Shown one piece after another: positions 6,500 to 23,638 of a stretch of 24,300 nt of DNA. The notes beneath the pieces are model-generated. The model was given only the letters and a program-made list of their open reading frames with translations, had not been told where the DNA came from and searched no databases. Origin of the DNA: a virus. The translations under genes were made by a program, and so were the position numbers. Location: positions 1 to 24,300 of IMG/VR virus record IMGVR_UViG_3300005664_003410, one strand, 5' to 3'. Position 1 is the first letter of the stretch; every line of letters begins with the position of its first letter.

Positions 6500-8134
6500 A
6501 TGAATAAAAATACAGAATTCGGCCCAGAAGCACGTAAAAAAATAGTTAAAGGTATTAATAAAGTTGCAGATGCAGTTACATCTACACTTGGACCTAATGG
6601 TAGAAATGTTATTTATACTGAGATGGGAGAAGTTAGAAGTACTAAAGATGGTGTTACAGTAGCAAAACAAATTTTTAATGTTGAAGATCCATTAGAAGAA
6701 ATGGGAGTTCAAATGATAAAACAAGTATCTATTAAAACAGCAAATACTGCTGGTGATGGAACAACAACTTCTACTCTTTTAGCTCAAAAAATGATTAATG
6801 AAGGAATCACTTATTTAGATAGAGGTTCCAATGCTGTAGATATTAAAAAAGGAATTGATTCTGCTGTTAAAGAAGTAGTAACTCATCTACGTAAAAAAAT
6901 ATCTAAAGATATATCTTCTGAAACTCAATTAGAACAAGTAGCTACAGTATCAGCAAATAATGATTCATCAGTAGGTAAATTAATTTCATCTGCTATGAAA
7001 AAAGTAGGTCGTGAAGGAGTAGTTACTATTGAAGAATCAAAAAGTGGAGAAACATATCTTGAAACAGTTGAAGGGATGCAATTCGACAGAGGATATAAAT
7101 CACATTATTTTGTTACTAATAACAATGATATGACTTGTACTCTAGAAGATCCTTATATATTAATTGCAGATAGAAAATTTACTGCAGTAAAAGATTTACT
7201 TCCAATCTTGGAAAGTGTTTCACAAAGTGGTAAATCCCTACTTATTATTGCTGAGGATATTGAAAGTGAAGCTTTATCTACTCTTATTGTTAATAAAATG
7301 AGAGGTATTTTAAAAGTAGCTGCTGTTAAATCTCCAGATTTCGGAGATAGAAGAAAACTTATCTTAGAAGATATTGCTGTAATGACAGGAGGAGAAGTGT
7401 TTAGTCCTGATAAAAATATGAAATTGGATAAATTTGATATGAAGTGGTTTGGAAGAGCTCGCTTAGTTACTATCACAAAAGATCAAACAACAATTGTTGA
7501 TGGAAAAGGAGAATCTGAAAAAATAGATGAACGAGTAAAAAATCTTCAAACACAAATTGAAAAAGCACCTTCCCCATTCGAAAAAGAAAAATTACAAGAG
7601 CGTTTAGCTAAATTTATAGGAGGAGTAGCTATTATTCATGTTGGTGGTAATTCGGAATTAGAAATGAAAGAAACCAAAGATAGAGTTGATGATGCACTTC
7701 AAGCAACAAAAGCAGCAATTGAAGAAGGTATAGTACCAGGAGGTGGAGCAGCTTTATTATATGCTAGAGAAAGTATTACTAAAGTAGATTCTATTGATGA
7801 ACAAATTGGTAAACAAATAGTTTATAAAGCTTGTGGTTCTCCATTCTTGAAAATATTATTAAATGCAGGTGTTGAAGAAAGTGAATGTTATGGTTTAATA
7901 AATCAAATTAAAACCGAATCCAAAAACAAATATTGGACTGGATATAATTTAAAAACCAAACAATTTACAGATATGGAAAAAGCAGGTATTATTGATCCTA
8001 CCAAGGTAACAAGAAATGCTATTGAAAATGCTGCATCAATTGCTGGTACAGTATTATTAACAGAAGCTGCAATCGTTGAAATAAACAACGATAAAAAAGA
8101 ACCTGAAATGGGTGGAATGCCTGGAATGTATTAA
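6500..8134 (+). CDS. groEL: GroEL chaperonin
   Basis: ATP-driven folding chamber, 544 residues, full length and strongly bacterial-like. ATP-site residues are intact: T-LGP at 29-32, STKDG with D50, AGDGTTT with D86, and D398 in RVDDAL. Apical substrate and GroES contacts also survive: Y199, Y203, F204, L234, L237, L259, I263 and V264. The C-terminus ends in a short GGMPGM, like the GGM tail of bacterial GroEL. Nothing suggests inactivation. The pair lies inside the replication operon, between clamp and clamp loader. It is more bacterial-looking than typical divergent phage chaperonins, which would fit a relatively recent capture from a host, but that is inference. Confidence 0.97.
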
Positions 8135-13733: not shown

Positions 13734-15044
13734 ATGAGTAAAAATACTTGCGTTATTTACGCACCAATAGATACCTTATCAGGTTATGGAGCTAGAGCTC
13801 GTGATACAGTTAAATCAATAATTCAACTTAAAAAAGAAGAATGGGATATTAAAATCATTCCTTGTAATTGGGGGAATACACCTACAGGATTTATTGAAGA
13901 AAATCCTGAATGGAAATTTCTTGAATCATATATAATTAATGGACAATTAACCACTCAACCAGATATTTTTGTTTGGATAACTGTACCAAATGAATTTCAA
14001 AAAGTAGGTAAATACAATATTGGTATTACAGCAGGTTTAGAAACAACTTTAGTACCAGGTGATTGGATTGAAGGAGTAAATAAAATGGATTTAGTACTTG
14101 TTTCATCTGAACATTCTAAAAAAGCATTTTTAGATTCTAAGTTTCAAAGAGTAAATGATCAAACAAAACAAGTAGAAGGTATAGTTGAAGTAAAAACTCC
14201 CATTGAAGTTATTTTTGAAGGTATTGATACTAATATTTATAAACATTTAGGAGAAATTCCAAAAAATAAAGAAATAGGAAATTTAAAATCAATTCCTGAA
14301 AGTATTTGTTATTTGTTTGTAGGACATTGGCTTCCAGGAGATCTAGGAGAAGATAGAAAAAATGTAGGTTTATTAATTAAAGCATTTCTTGAAACATTTA
14401 AAAATAAAAAAACAAAACCTGCATTAATTTTAAAAACATCAATTGTTGGTCCATCTTATATGGATAGAGATGAAATCTTAAAACGTATCCAACAAATTAG
14501 AGACACAGTTAATTCACCAGATTTACCTAATATTTATTTATTGCATGGTGAATTTACAGATGAAGAAATGAATGAAATATACAATCATCCAAAAGTAAAA
14601 TTAATGGTATCTCTTACTAAAGGAGAAGGATTTGGACGCCCATTACTTGAATTTACTCAAAGTAAAAAACCAATTCTAACAACTAATTGGAGTGGACATT
14701 TAGATTTCTTAAATACTGGATTTACAACACTAATTTCAGGTACATTAACAAATGTTCATCCAAGTGCTGCTAATCAATTTTTAATGAAAGAATCTCAATG
14801 GTTTTCTCCCGATTTAGGTAGGGTAGGATATTATTTAAAAGATATATTTGAAAATTATGAAGATTATGTTGATGGAGGAAAACGTCAAGCATATCATTCA
14901 AAACAAAATTTCTCATTTGAAAAAATGAATGAAAAAATGGCTGAGTATTTAAAACGTATTCCTGAATTTCCAAAACAAATTCAATTGAAATTACCACAAC
15001 TTAAAAAAATCGAATTGCCTAAATTACAAAAACTAGAAAAATAA
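13734..15044 (+). CDS. Glycosyltransferase, GT-B fold (GT4-like), with repetitive tail
   Basis: A 436-residue predicted glycosyltransferase. The N-terminal domain has CVIYAPIDTLSGYGARARD, a glycine-rich loop like that of the previous enzyme, and the C-terminal domain has E298-GFGRPLL-E306 (E-x7-E) followed by KKPILTTNWSGH. VIFEGIDTNIYK at about 161-172 is the interdomain segment. The last 20 or so residues form a Leu, Pro and Lys repeat (LPQLKKIELPKLQKLEK), unlike the rest, possibly a binding tail. Donor and acceptor are unknown. The two GT-B proteins are not close copies, so they probably add different sugars or act on different acceptors. Confidence 0.87.
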   Translation: MSKNTCVIYAPIDTLSGYGARARDTVKSIIQLKKEEWDIKIIPCNWGNTPTGFIEENPEWKFLESYIINGQLTTQPDIFVWITVPNEFQKVGKYNIGITAGLETTLVPGDWIEGVNKMDLVLVSSEHSKKAFLDSKFQRVNDQTKQVEGIVEVKTPIEVIFEGIDTNIYKHLGEIPKNKEIGNLKSIPESICYLFVGHWLPGDLGEDRKNVGLLIKAFLETFKNKKTKPALILKTSIVGPSYMDRDEILKRIQQIRDTVNSPDLPNIYLLHGEFTDEEMNEIYNHPKVKLMVSLTKGEGFGRPLLEFTQSKKPILTTNWSGHLDFLNTGFTTLISGTLTNVHPSAANQFLMKESQWFSPDLGRVGYYLKDIFENYEDYVDGGKRQAYHSKQNFSFEKMNEKMAEYLKRIPEFPKQIQLKLPQLKKIELPKLQKLEK

Positions 15045-15066: not shown

Positions 15067-15825
15067 ATGAAAAAACTTATATTTACTTTATTCACATTAA
15101 TTTCTCTTAGTGTTTTATTCTCATGTCAAAATACTACTAATCCAACATCAACATCACAATATACAGATGTAATCATTAGAAATTCATCTAAATTAGACAG
15201 TGTTCAAGTATTTGTTACACTTCAATCTACTGAAAGTATTATTGGAAAATTTGGAATGGATTCAACAAATTTCAATCCTAACAGTAAAAACCCAGATGGT
15301 AGTCCCGTTACATGTAAAGGAGTATTTTGGGCATATAAAAATATAGAATACCATTTAGGCGATACAGCTACACTTTATGGTGCTGTAGTTAGTTTTGGAG
15401 CAGATAATTATGCTTGTGATGCTGCTATATCACATGGTTGGGAATATGGAGTAAATATCTTTGAATTTACAGTCAACACACCAAGTACAGGTAATGAATC
15501 AACTGATTTATCGTGTTTAGATGGTTTAAATTCATTTCTACAATTAACAGTTTCAGATACAGTTAATTGGATTGCTGGCGGGAATGTATTCAAAAACCCA
15601 GCAAAAAATAATTGGCCATTAAATACAAATTGTAATATAATTGGTGTGTATCCATATCATTGTGATGTATGTATAGATACATTAACACCACCACATCCAG
15701 TATGTTTTCAATTTGAAGGATGTTCATCAAATTCTGTTAATAATTGTCAATTAGATAGAGCAACAGTTCGTGGAGGAAATATTAAATGTGAATTTTTAGG
15801 ATTCACTCCAGTACCAATGAAATAA
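15067..15825 (+). CDS. Cysteine-rich secreted lipoprotein
   Basis: A 252-residue protein with a lipoprotein signal: MKK, a hydrophobic stretch (LIFTLFTLISLSV), and the lipobox L17-F-S-C20. Cleavage before C20 and acylation are predicted; the mature protein begins CQNTTNPTSTS, a flexible Ser/Thr/Asn linker. The rest is rich in beta-type sequence and has ten further cysteines, enough for five disulfides, which fits an oxidising compartment. Faint similarity in layout to thaumatin-like folds (F-E-F-T-V-N ... D-L-S-x-L-D-G) was noticed but is not firm. It could be a surface protein altering the infected cell, for instance in superinfection exclusion. No known family was recognised. Confidence 0.8.
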   Translation: MKKLIFTLFTLISLSVLFSCQNTTNPTSTSQYTDVIIRNSSKLDSVQVFVTLQSTESIIGKFGMDSTNFNPNSKNPDGSPVTCKGVFWAYKNIEYHLGDTATLYGAVVSFGADNYACDAAISHGWEYGVNIFEFTVNTPSTGNESTDLSCLDGLNSFLQLTVSDTVNWIAGGNVFKNPAKNNWPLNTNCNIIGVYPYHCDVCIDTLTPPHPVCFQFEGCSSNSVNNCQLDRATVRGGNIKCEFLGFTPVPMK

Positions 15826-15834
15826 TTATAAAAA

Positions 15835-16380
15835 ATGATTAAACTTTTAGATTTACTATTTGAAAATAGTACTAGTTCATATAAATATGGGTGTGTAATG
15901 TTATATTTTGATTTTCCCCAAATCAATAAAATTCATAATATTATTAACAAAGATGATATATATGAGGAAGATAAAGATAAAACATTTGGTTTGGAAGATG
16001 AACCCCACACTACTCTTTTGTATGGGTTACACAAAGAAGTATCAAATGATGATGTAGAAAAAACTTTAAATAAGTACACTTATTTCCCTTGTACAATAAA
16101 AAATGCTTCATTATTTGAAAATGAAAAATATGATGTTTTAAAATTTGATGTGGAAGGAAAAAATTTAACAGAAACAAATGAATCTCTTAAAAAATTTCCA
16201 TTTACTAGTGATTATCCAAAATATCACCCACATCTAACTATAGGATATATAAAACCAGGATTGGGTAAAAAATACACCAAAATTTTACAAGGATTAGAAT
16301 ATAAATTAATTCCTAAATATGCAATTTATTCTCATCCTGATGGAACTAAAACTAAAATAAAAATAAAAACCAATGAATAA
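15835..16380 (+). CDS. 2H phosphoesterase (2'-5' RNA ligase-like)
   Basis: A 181-residue protein with the two HxT motifs of the 2H superfamily: H58-T-T60 in EPHTTLLYGLH and H133-L-T135 in HPHLTIGYI, about 75 residues apart as usual. These enzymes open 2',3'-cyclic or 2'-5' phosphodiester bonds. Some phage members act on tRNA ends, and the anti-CBASS protein Acb1 of T4-like phages, also a 2H fold, cleaves cyclic oligonucleotide signals; sequence alone does not choose between them. The N-terminus, MIKLLDLLFEN, is a short amphipathic segment separate from the domain. The gene is 9 bp after the lipoprotein and overlaps the next gene by 8 bp. Confidence 0.82.
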   Translation: MIKLLDLLFENSTSSYKYGCVMLYFDFPQINKIHNIINKDDIYEEDKDKTFGLEDEPHTTLLYGLHKEVSNDDVEKTLNKYTYFPCTIKNASLFENEKYDVLKFDVEGKNLTETNESLKKFPFTSDYPKYHPHLTIGYIKPGLGKKYTKILQGLEYKLIPKYAIYSHPDGTKTKIKIKTNE

Positions 16381-16834
16381 AATAGAAGACAACTTAGTTA
16401 TATGCAACCATTGTGGTTCAGATGCATGTTACATGATAGAAAACTCCCCAGAAGTTAAAACATATTCATGTTTTGGTTGTGGATTTACTACAAACTCTTT
16501 AATGAAAGAAGGAGAAGAATTTTATAAACAACAATTAGAAACTCTTCCTGAATTATATAAAGATGTAATGATTAAAGATAATGAAGGATTAATTTGGATG
16601 CCTACTACTATTAATAATCCACAAAACGGAATGGTATTTTATAATGGAACTTCTGTTGAAAATGCTAAATGGGCATCAGTGAAAGCTGTTAAAGTTGAAG
16701 AAACAGAAAAAGAAAAATACCCAATTAAAGGAAAACCAGGAGAATTCTATGAATGGAGAATGGATATGACTACTATGAAAGCTTTTGAGATGAAAGAATT
16801 TATGGATGCCTTGGAATATATAAATATCCTTTAA
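16373..16834 (+). CDS. Zinc-ribbon protein of unknown function
   Basis: A 153-residue protein starting with a zinc ribbon: C11-N-H-C14 and C33-F-G-C36, with an extra C19. The rest has no enzyme motif; it contains IWMPTTINNPQNGMVFYNG and a C-terminal acidic helix (MKEFMDALEYINIL). The start overlaps the 2H phosphoesterase by 8 bp, so the two are probably translated together. Zinc ribbons of this size often bind nucleic acid or another protein; the role here is unknown. Confidence 0.7.
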   Translation: MNKIEDNLVICNHCGSDACYMIENSPEVKTYSCFGCGFTTNSLMKEGEEFYKQQLETLPELYKDVMIKDNEGLIWMPTTINNPQNGMVFYNGTSVENAKWASVKAVKVEETEKEKYPIKGKPGEFYEWRMDMTTMKAFEMKEFMDALEYINIL

Positions 16835-16886: not shown

Positions 16887-17024
16887 ATGGGAAGAATTAA
16901 AAAATATCAAACGCCTGATGAAAAACAAAAAGCTAGGGCAAACGCTTCCAAAAAATATTATTGGAAAAATAAAGAACAAGAAGATGAAAAAGCACGACAA
17001 CGCTATTATAGAAAGAAAAGTTAG
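16887..17024 (+). pseudogene. Out-of-frame N-terminal segment of a homing endonuclease
   Basis: A 45-codon frame from ATG 16887 to TAG 17022-17024, the only TAG stop among all frames called here. Its product (MGRIKKYQTPDEKQKARANA...) ends KKYYWKNKEQEDEKARQRYYRKK and aligns with the start of the HNH endonuclease (KYWTKEKQKEYY...KKYYQNNKQD). It overlaps the GIY-YIG frame that starts at 16918. Losing one A from the run at 17016-17019 would fuse the two into one protein of about 248 residues reading RYYRKKVSIYF. I therefore read it as the original N-terminus separated by a single-base indel. A programmed frameshift, an assembly error or a separate small gene are alternatives. Confidence 0.45.
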
Positions 17025-17634
17025 TATATACTTTATCCATAAAGGAGACAATATTCCTCTTTATGTAGGTAAAACAAAAACTCCTTTTAGTAAAAGAATA
17101 TATTCTCATAAATTAAGATTTGGAGAAGATATATTAATGGAAGAGATAGATAAAATTGAAGAAATTAATTGGAAATTTTGGGAAAAACATTATATAAGTT
17201 TATTTAGATCTTGGGGTTTTAAACTAGATAATAAAAACAATGGTGGTGGTGGATTGAATTTTCATTCTGAAATATCTAAGGATAAAATAAGAAAAAAATG
17301 GGATAATAAAACCAAAAATGAAAAAAATAATATAAATTATAAAAGGGGAAAAGGAAATAAAGGAAAGAAAAAACCCAAATCAGGGAGGAAACAATATACC
17401 AAGGAACAACTAGAGTATTCTAAAAAACATAGTCGTTTTAGTCAATCGGATTGGAGTGAAAAATGTAAAAAATCTGTACTTATGTTAGATAAATATAGTG
17501 AAAAAGTAATAAAAGAATTCTCCTCTGTTAGTGAAGCTGCTAATTTTATAAAAGTATCCCAATCAACATTATCGGGATGTTTAACTAAACATCAAAAAAC
17601 TTCTGGGGGTTATAAGTGGAAATTTAAAAATTAA
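16918..17634 (+). CDS. GIY-YIG homing endonuclease with NUMOD1-type tail
   Basis: Predicted free-standing homing endonuclease. The catalytic domain begins at S36-I-Y (GIY position) and L48-Y-V-G51-K-T (YIG position), with R60 as the likely catalytic Arg; the conserved WGFKLDNKNNGGGG follows. A basic linker (KGNKGKKKPKSGRK) leads to a C-terminal helix-turn-helix of NUMOD1/IENR1 type, VSEAANFIKVSQSTLSGCL, ending GGYKWKF. The first 34 residues look like out-of-frame translation and are not typical; ATG 16984 is an alternative start. It sits between the zinc-ribbon and glycosyltransferase genes. It shares the central WGF...N-x-NGG...FHS segment with the GIY-YIG protein at 22931. Confidence 0.85.
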   Translation: MKNKKLGQTLPKNIIGKIKNKKMKKHDNAIIERKVSIYFIHKGDNIPLYVGKTKTPFSKRIYSHKLRFGEDILMEEIDKIEEINWKFWEKHYISLFRSWGFKLDNKNNGGGGLNFHSEISKDKIRKKWDNKTKNEKNNINYKRGKGNKGKKKPKSGRKQYTKEQLEYSKKHSRFSQSDWSEKCKKSVLMLDKYSEKVIKEFSSVSEAANFIKVSQSTLSGCLTKHQKTSGGYKWKFKN

Positions 17635-22097: not shown

Positions 22098-22874
22098 ATG
22101 GCAAAAGGAGTTTACGCAATAACAGAAGAATTTGAAGAAGCATTAAGTGAATACACAGGTGCTCCTTATGTGGTTACAATAGATAATGCTTGTAATGCAT
22201 TATTTTTATGTTTATATTATGAAAAAAATATAGTAAAAACAATTACTACAGACACAATAAAAATTCCAGCTCGAACATATCCTGGTGTTCCACCAGAAAT
22301 TATTCGCAATGGGTTTAAAATTGATTTTCATCCACCAACAGAAAAAACATTAAAAGGTCCATATCTATTAGAAGGATCTAATGTTTGGGATTCAGCTTTA
22401 AGATTTACTCATAATATGTACATTCCAGGAAGTTTTATGTGTATATCAATGACTGGAGGATTAAAAAATTTCAAAATGGGTTCTAAAGCAGGAGCTATTC
22501 TAACAGATAATGCAGAAGCTGCTGCTTGGTTTAAACGTGCTAGATTTTCAGGACGTAGAGAAATACCTTATATGGAAGATAATTTGGATATGCTTGGATG
22601 GAATTTTTACCTAAATCCTGAATTATCAGTTAGAGGTTTAATATTAATGACTGGATTTTATAAAGATGGAAAACCAATTAACGTTCCTGATAAAGAATTA
22701 CCATATCCTGACTTGTCAAAGTTTGAAGTTTACAAACAACCTAAAAATGTATTTAATAGAGAAGAAGTTGAAAAATTAGTTAAAAAAGCTATTACCTTTG
22801 GACATGATGAAAGTACAAATGATATATATTTGTCTAGAGTTAATTTTGATAAATGGATAGGGGAGAATTTATAA
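22098..22874 (+). CDS. Short DegT/DnrJ/EryC1-like aminotransferase domain protein
   Basis: Resembles the large PLP domain of sugar aminotransferases: ITEEFEEALSEYTGAPYVVT (usual start of the fold), NACNALFLCL in place of S-G-T-A-A-L-H-L-A-L, IPARTYPGVPPEI, a W97-D98 in the position of the PLP-nitrogen Asp, and CISMTGGLKNFKMGSKAG, where K123 or K126 would be the PLP lysine. LGWNFYLNPELSVRGLIL matches the family's G-x-N-x-R-x-x-E-x-x-A. The normal C-terminal domain of about 100-130 residues is absent, and a tail (FNREEVEKLVKKA...DKWIGENL) follows instead. Catalysis is uncertain. It could make an amino sugar for the cassette or bind sugar nucleotides only. Confidence 0.7.
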   Translation: MAKGVYAITEEFEEALSEYTGAPYVVTIDNACNALFLCLYYEKNIVKTITTDTIKIPARTYPGVPPEIIRNGFKIDFHPPTEKTLKGPYLLEGSNVWDSALRFTHNMYIPGSFMCISMTGGLKNFKMGSKAGAILTDNAEAAAWFKRARFSGRREIPYMEDNLDMLGWNFYLNPELSVRGLILMTGFYKDGKPINVPDKELPYPDLSKFEVYKQPKNVFNREEVEKLVKKAITFGHDESTNDIYLSRVNFDKWIGENL

Positions 22875-22930: not shown

Positions 22931-23638
22931 ATGATACAAACTACAAAAATTTACTTAGTAACTAATATAGATAATAACCCAAATAAGGTCTATATAGGTA
23001 AAACCAAATCTTCAAGAAAATCTGCTCATAGATGTACATTTGGTTCTCAAATCACTTATAATTATATAGATCAAATAGATTCTTTAGATCAAAAAATTTG
23101 GAAACCTTTAGAATCATTTTGGATTGAACAATTTAGAGTATGGGGTTTTGAAGTGGTAAATTTAAATAATGGAGGAAGTGGACCTAGTTTTCATTCTAAA
23201 GAAACTAAATCCACCATGAGTAAAATTCGAAAAGGAAAACCTAAACCTAAAGGATTTGGAGAAAGAAATTCACAAGATAAAACTAGAAATATTAAAATAG
23301 GTAATTCTATGAGAGGAAGAATTCAAAGTGAAGAAGAAAAACAAAATCGAAGGATACCAAAACCTAAAGAATTTGGGGATAAAATTAGTAAGGCTTTAAC
23401 TGGAAAATCCAAATCTAAAGAACATATTAATAATATGATGAAAAATAGATTAGGTGTTATAGAAGCCACAATTAAAGCACTTAGTAAACCTATTATTCAA
23501 AAAGATCTAGAAGGTAATTTTATTAAAGAATGGCCTTCTACTAAATCAGCAAAAGAATGGTTAGGTAAAGGAGACATAACAGGATGTCTTTTAGGAAAAC
23601 AAAAAACAGCTGGTGGTTTTATTTGGGAATTTAAATAA
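22931..23638 (+). CDS. GIY-YIG homing endonuclease with NUMOD3 and NUMOD1-type segments
   Basis: A 235-residue predicted homing endonuclease. The catalytic domain starts at once: K6-I-Y8 (GIY position), V20-Y-I-G23-K-T (YIG position), R33 region, then WGFEVVNLNNGGSGPSFHS. Two NUMOD3-like basic segments follow (KIRKGKPKPKGFGERNS and KALTGKSKSKEHINN), and the C-terminal NUMOD1/IENR1 unit (STKSAKEWLGKGDITGCLLG, ending GGFIWEFK) is a DNA-binding helix-turn-helix. It lies between the DegT-like and WbqC genes. It lacks the Lys/Tyr-rich leader found before the other GIY-YIG gene. Confidence 0.88.
   Translation: MIQTTKIYLVTNIDNNPNKVYIGKTKSSRKSAHRCTFGSQITYNYIDQIDSLDQKIWKPLESFWIEQFRVWGFEVVNLNNGGSGPSFHSKETKSTMSKIRKGKPKPKGFGERNSQDKTRNIKIGNSMRGRIQSEEEKQNRRIPKPKEFGDKISKALTGKSKSKEHINNMMKNRLGVIEATIKALSKPIIQKDLEGNFIKEWPSTKSAKEWLGKGDITGCLLGKQKTAGGFIWEFK

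Follow-up and report, generated by a model that had tools for sequence, protein, structure and literature searches.

A predicted lipid-anchored, cysteine-rich accessory protein in a variable slot of the glycosyltransferase operon of a putative T4-like Bacteroidota phage

The DNA analysed here, referred to as the window, is the whole of IMG/VR virus record IMGVR_UViG_3300005664_003410, which is 24,300 bases long and presumably a fragment. It encodes a family-B DNA polymerase, a clamp loader, GroES and a PD-(D/E)XK nuclease, together with a glycosyltransferase related, at 56.5% identity, to that of Flavobacterium phage immuto, and from these genes we infer that the window probably belongs to a T4-like phage of Bacteroidota. 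The closest relative of the polymerase in the phage collection is that of phage Mel-JY01 (PP395634.1), for which Microcystis is the recorded host; Mel-JY01 has the glycosyltransferase in common with Flavobacterium phages, and this host entry may be worth verifying. The gene of interest (Table 1) lies among glycosyltransferases, methyltransferases and replication genes, a setting amid enzymes that had been described correctly in the original prediction, and no structural genes were recognised near it in the window. Gaps of only 22 bases to the preceding gene and 9 to the next place it in an operon-like run.

Table 1. Features of the lipoprotein gene and its immediate neighbours in the window
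Feature	Position	Strand	Basis or remark
Upstream glycosyltransferase	13734..15044	+	22-base gap to the lipoprotein gene; also its neighbour in L147
Cysteine-rich lipoprotein gene, 252 aa	15067..15825 (ATG 15067, stop 15825)	+	ORF, lipobox, homologues
Signal peptide with lipobox LFSC, predicted lipid-attachment Cys20	15067..15126	+	Lipobox rule; kept in L147
Short Asn/Thr/Ser-rich linker, no acidic residues	15127..15159	+	Sequence
Mature domain, ten cysteines, purifying selection	15160..15822	+	dN/dS 0.12
Residues 129-165, aligning with the thaumatin core LAEFxLN...DISxVxGxN	15451..15561	+	Profile comparison
2H phosphoesterase resembling anti-CBASS Acb1	15835..16380	+	In the window slot; absent from the L147 slot
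Zn-ribbon protein closing the variable slot	16373..16834	+	Adjacency count in relatives

The N-terminus of the encoded protein has the characteristics of a bacterial lipoprotein, namely a positively charged start, a hydrophobic stretch and a lipobox with its invariant cysteine. A strict lipobox rule of our own finds C20 (..LFSC), and when sequences were shuffled 100,000 times the same rule was satisfied in only 5 cases for the whole protein and in 6 for residues 2-35, such that the lipobox on which the original prediction was built is beyond chance. The ten further cysteines noted there are C83, C117, C150, C189, C199, C202, C213, C219, C227 and C241, giving 11 in all. A homologue 78% identical overall, and 81% over residues 20-251, is encoded on a 12,976-base phage contig (L147) in the same position, between the same glycosyltransferase and Zn-ribbon gene. 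Its signal peptide has diverged with retention of the lipobox (C17), and the ten mature cysteines are identical (10/10). Using a simple Nei-Gojobori-type count of our own (dS 0.6-1.0), dN/dS between the two was 0.121 for the mature part and 0.160 for the whole lipoprotein; the two neighbouring glycosyltransferases gave 0.164 and 0.219 and the Zn-ribbon protein 0.188. Purifying selection thus acts on the mature part, which is more constrained than the neighbouring genes, and this is a real gene and not a chance frame.

To define the genomic context more broadly, we surveyed 67 loci carrying the upstream glycosyltransferase, 15 of which were too short, leaving 52 testable. The Zn-ribbon gene stood directly behind the glycosyltransferase in 34/52 and was not found within 4 kb of it in 10/52, while the remaining 8 had an intervening gene, of five kinds, two of them homing-endonuclease-like (by eye). 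In the window this slot holds the lipoprotein gene and the Acb1-like phosphoesterase; the lipoprotein gene thus occupies a variable slot of a glycosyltransferase operon. It was absent from all 130 other loci inspected (67 chosen by the neighbouring glycosyltransferase, 63 by the phosphoesterase), and a search of 50 related records at full length gave one match, confined to residues 1-48 in the signal-peptide region. The phosphoesterase itself scores 27.6 bits against a Pfam cut-off of 27.0 for Acb1, has 63 viral and 3 genome relatives, and is a possible counter-defence gene by sequence resemblance. Elsewhere inside the glycan cassette are two homing-endonuclease-like ORFs with NUMOD-type matches (16918-17634 and 22931-23638) and a DegT-type aminotransferase ORF (22098-22874) of only 258 aa, which matches positions 26-87 of a 360-position profile; it may be a truncated sugar aminotransferase, with a homing endonuclease as its neighbour.

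With the window protein alone as query, no relative was found in phages, plasmids, viral contigs or genome contigs, and no family match in Pfam, PHROGs, NCBIfam or PADLOC, nor any in the PDB. The candidates that did appear, phrog_4002 (E 0.17), the NCBIfam matches and a match in L096/L097 (E 0.0026), covered only the signal peptide and adjoining part and were rejected as relatives; porin and endolysin-like PDB matches were at chance level. Homologues detected by tblastn in unrelated large-phage contigs were 44% identical (L158, 317,983 bases, and L159, 132,425 bases, whose matched places are alike in identity and coordinates) and 37% identical (L160, 106,306 bases), with a single copy in each phage record. 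The L160 record encodes a terminase; a PF03237 terminase match is absent from the L158 and L159 records, so that they are taken as phage from their IMG/VR listing and their phage-type genes. The L158 and L160 proteins begin with a hydrophobic stretch (19-residue Kyte-Doolittle values of 2.2-2.4) that does not end in a lipobox, and for this reason we regard it as probably a signal anchor, that is, a membrane helix. All four distinct phage sequences therefore have a predicted N-terminal anchor, either a lipobox (window, L147) or a membrane helix (L158, L160), so that phages appear to conserve a predicted exported, membrane-tethered domain while varying the type of anchor, and the proposed cell-envelope location gains support from every phage relative.

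The organization of the more distant loci is that of a moron. Upstream of the L160 homologue, at 7902-7933, lies the pattern TTTG-N20-TANNTTTG, which we take to be a Bacteroidota promoter; it occurs 7 times in the L160 locus against 1.9 expected, a number that none of 200 shuffles reached. In L158 the homologue stands alone on the + strand, flanked by genes on the - strand and followed by a terminator-like hairpin (by eye). In the window the same promoter pattern was found 3 times against 2.8 expected, never on the strand of the lipoprotein gene. No glycosyltransferase was recognised near the L158 and L160 homologues (by eye, with Pfam and PHROGs on some ORFs). The tie to the glycan cassette that had been proposed therefore stands as an operonic one in the window and L147 and is weakened as a fixed one. 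Two further lipoprotein-like ORFs are present at 455-1998 of L158 and small ones in four other loci (L075, L079, L086 and L088), and Bacteroidota phages may carry many.

Homologues were also identified in cells. Among 395 Bacteroidota genomes searched, a single one had a clear homologue (E 6.8e-11); seven of the eight genomes listed matched weakly (E 4e-4 to 4e-3) and were not counted as members. Alignment queries of two and then six sequences added four further genomes with a homologue. By sample, the counts were 4 of 291 genomes of the order (the first one included), 5 of 196 of the family (those four included), 1 of 395 in a later sample of the phylum (again the first one) and 1 of 8 in the genus of genome G868, so that in cells, too, the gene occurs rarely and patchily. 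The five Bacteroidota proteins (L139, L149, L150, L151 and L156) are homologous to the phage mature domain, phage and cell profiles aligning with an hhalign probability of 98.8%, and in a tree the four phage sequences are separated from the cellular ones by a long branch. On this sequence evidence the window, L147, L158/L159 and L160 proteins form, together with the five cellular ones, a small undescribed family. None of the five cellular members has a hydrophobic N-terminus or signal peptide, and the ancestral job of the domain need therefore not be in the envelope. In L156 the homologue has a PixA inclusion-body protein gene (2256-2852, E 3.8e-42) beside it on the same strand; the other cellular homologues adjoin unrelated genes, and this context points to no function. 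Cysteine positions are only partly fixed across the family, with 5-12 per (trimmed) member and 10 in the mature part of the window protein. C83, C189, C219 and C241 are present in 4/4 phage forms and 0/5 cellular forms, the latter having other cysteines of their own, a distribution that fits extra disulphides in the exported forms.

A resemblance to the thaumatin core, first noticed by eye, was examined by profile comparison. Aligned by hhalign with six thaumatin-like proteins, the nine-member family gave a probability of 66% (P 5.5e-5, score 37.4) over 36 columns only. None of 600 column shuffles reached this score (best 25.2), and 54 unrelated families scored at most 18.2. The P value needs a discount, since thaumatin was picked after looking, and would be non-significant if corrected for a Pfam-sized library. 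Profiles of the subsets barely exceeded the best of 100 shuffles each (phage-only 29.6 against 26.0, cell-only 31.9 against 30.4). Searched with PF00314 at E up to 10, the window gave no match, nor did six alignment members by hmmscan, and the pattern G-x-[GF]-x-C-x-T-[GA]-D-C, presumably the thaumatin signature, was found in 6/6 thaumatin controls and 0/9 family members. Nor does the family have the thaumatin cysteine pattern (16 conserved, 10 in small forms). Acidic residues that may correspond to the REDDD cleft (E133, E144, D147 and D152) are present in 4/4 phage members and partly in the cellular ones. AlphaFold models had a mean pLDDT of 32 (2 sequences) and 36 (4 sequences), too poor for a fold; with the latter, too poor to judge by, Foldseek and VIA-align returned nothing at E < 0.001 or Z >= 5, and no thaumatin was among the matches listed. 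Thaumatin family members were not detected in 325 Bacteroidota genomes either, but the controls were equally silent, so this is not evidence of absence. Among the matches listed in the open-licence literature, no paper on a phage thaumatin-like protein was found. We give distant kinship with thaumatin-like proteins about an even chance.

Where in the envelope the protein would reside can be addressed from the residues behind the lipobox. According to PMC5080379, surface lipoproteins of Bacteroidota carry an export signal such as K-(D/E)2, Q-A-(D/E)2 or an SDD-type motif just behind the +1 cysteine. By this rule, no such signal is present behind the lipobox cysteine of the window protein, where the sequence reads QNTTNPTSTSQYT and the first acidic residue is D34 (the L147 homologue reads NCPTNPCPS), suggesting that the protein faces the periplasm. 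T5 Llp, a phage lipoprotein that excludes superinfection, is described in PMC9586334 as acting from the periplasmic face of FhuA. Together, the missing acidic signal and the Llp precedent make the surface a less likely site, and the idea of action on the cell surface is not upheld to that extent.

Overall, the data support the view of the window protein as a predicted exported, lipid-anchored, cysteine-rich accessory phage protein encoded outside the structural genes. Most likely, by analogy, it would be an accessory envelope protein that faces the periplasm and acts like Llp or like Ltp of TP-J34, a superinfection-excluding phage lipoprotein (PMC3952083); on the strength of these two precedents, superinfection exclusion is plausible. 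In full, the explanation we favour, tentatively and with somewhat less than even confidence, is that the window phage, T4-like and infecting Bacteroidota, carries in its variable slot a moron-type gene for a lipoprotein that the infected cell would export through Sec, cleave and lipidate at Cys20. The lipid would hold it in the envelope facing the periplasm, where the ten-cysteine domain may fold with disulphides and bind a host envelope component, and further phages would be blocked at entry from the periplasmic side, as by Llp at FhuA or Ltp at the cytoplasmic membrane. Export and anchoring of the conserved domain are predicted from sequence and comparison, while the target and the exclusion effect are suggested by analogy. 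In favour of this explanation are a lipobox kept in L147, a mature domain more constrained than its neighbours, a predicted anchor of one kind or the other in all four phage sequences, the moron-like layout in L158 and L160, other inserts in the slot of 8/52 relatives, and the sporadic recurrence of the domain in unrelated phage contigs with different neighbours; against it are the lack of any family match, a size much larger than that of Llp, the setting among glycan genes in the window, and five cellular homologues with no export signal.

Several other roles could be served by the same architecture. The window protein may serve the glycan cassette, since its gene lies tightly among glycan genes of the same orientation and lacks a promoter of its own of the type searched for. 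It could then be a glycan-binding or glycan-cleaving envelope protein, with a thaumatin-like fold and an acidic cleft, acting for the phage cassette or on host polysaccharide, a reading consistent with the operon shared with glycosyltransferases in both the window and L147, with profile similarity to thaumatins over a segment holding several acidic cleft residues, all four of them kept in every phage member, and with the glycan-lytic activity to which PMC3048497 links thaumatin-like proteins. However, the alignment spans 36 columns with neither PF00314 match nor signature, the subset profiles do little better than the best shuffles, and no glycan cassette was recognised near the L158 and L160 homologues, leaving this role somewhat unlikely. 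Some other protection or alteration of the infected cell, such as a response to envelope stress, nutrient uptake, or a block of outer-membrane receptors against toxins or predators in place of exclusion, would equally suit a sporadic accessory gene under strong constraint, as any moron function would; nothing specific points there, however, and we consider it unlikely.

Phage lipoproteins are often o-spanins, and a lysis role as an outer-membrane spanin-like lipoprotein therefore deserves mention, but a cysteine-rich protein of 252 aa with no C-terminal membrane helix (best Kyte-Doolittle 0.86 past residue 35), the replacement of the lipid by a membrane helix in relatives, and the lack of a recognised holin or endolysin in the window make it highly improbable. 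A disulphide-stabilised domain would also be stable outside the cell, which would suit a virion component; set against the conserved membrane anchors, the lack of recognised structural genes nearby and the absence of the gene from nearly all relatives of the window phage, this too is very unlikely.

Returning to an exclusion protein in the envelope, what is new is the family, whereas phage exclusion lipoproteins as a kind are already known, mainly from coliphages and phages of lactic acid bacteria. As far as a limited literature search shows, none has been described from Bacteroidota phages. A conserved domain anchored in two ways by unrelated phages offers a clean, testable candidate. A bolder proposal, which we think rather unlikely, is that here, for the first time, a family of thaumatin-like proteins is seen that phages encode and tether to the membrane. 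Its ectodomain would have been passed among unrelated Bacteroidota phages and re-anchored by lipid or helix; in the envelope of the infected cell it would grip a glycan or an outer-membrane receptor and so represent an entry block of a new class. If the thaumatin link were true, a fold known from plant defence proteins would also be used by phages.

The family can be set beside four known groups of proteins. It resembles thaumatin-like proteins (PF00314) in the LAEFxLN...DISxVxGxN core, in length and in cysteine richness, but differs in lacking the PF00314 match and signature, in having 5-12 instead of 16 cysteines and in its predicted membrane anchoring in phages. The leaderless Bacteroidota homologues share the mature domain, but have neither a signal peptide nor the four phage-specific cysteines. 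Family databases (PHROGs, Pfam, NCBIfam and PADLOC) tie the window protein to no exclusion protein such as Llp, Cor or Ltp; having no family match in Pfam, PHROGs and NCBIfam, it matches none of the Ltp type there. Like the Ltp family, which PMC3952083 describes as membrane-tethered and scattered among phages and bacteria, it appears to be a tethered phage moron, although Ltp comes from temperate phages of Gram-positive bacteria. Like T5 Llp, as presented in PMC9586334, it would be a disulphide-bearing, periplasm-facing phage lipoprotein accessory to a virulent phage, but Llp is small and Cor-like according to that source, whereas the window protein has 252 aa and ten mature cysteines.
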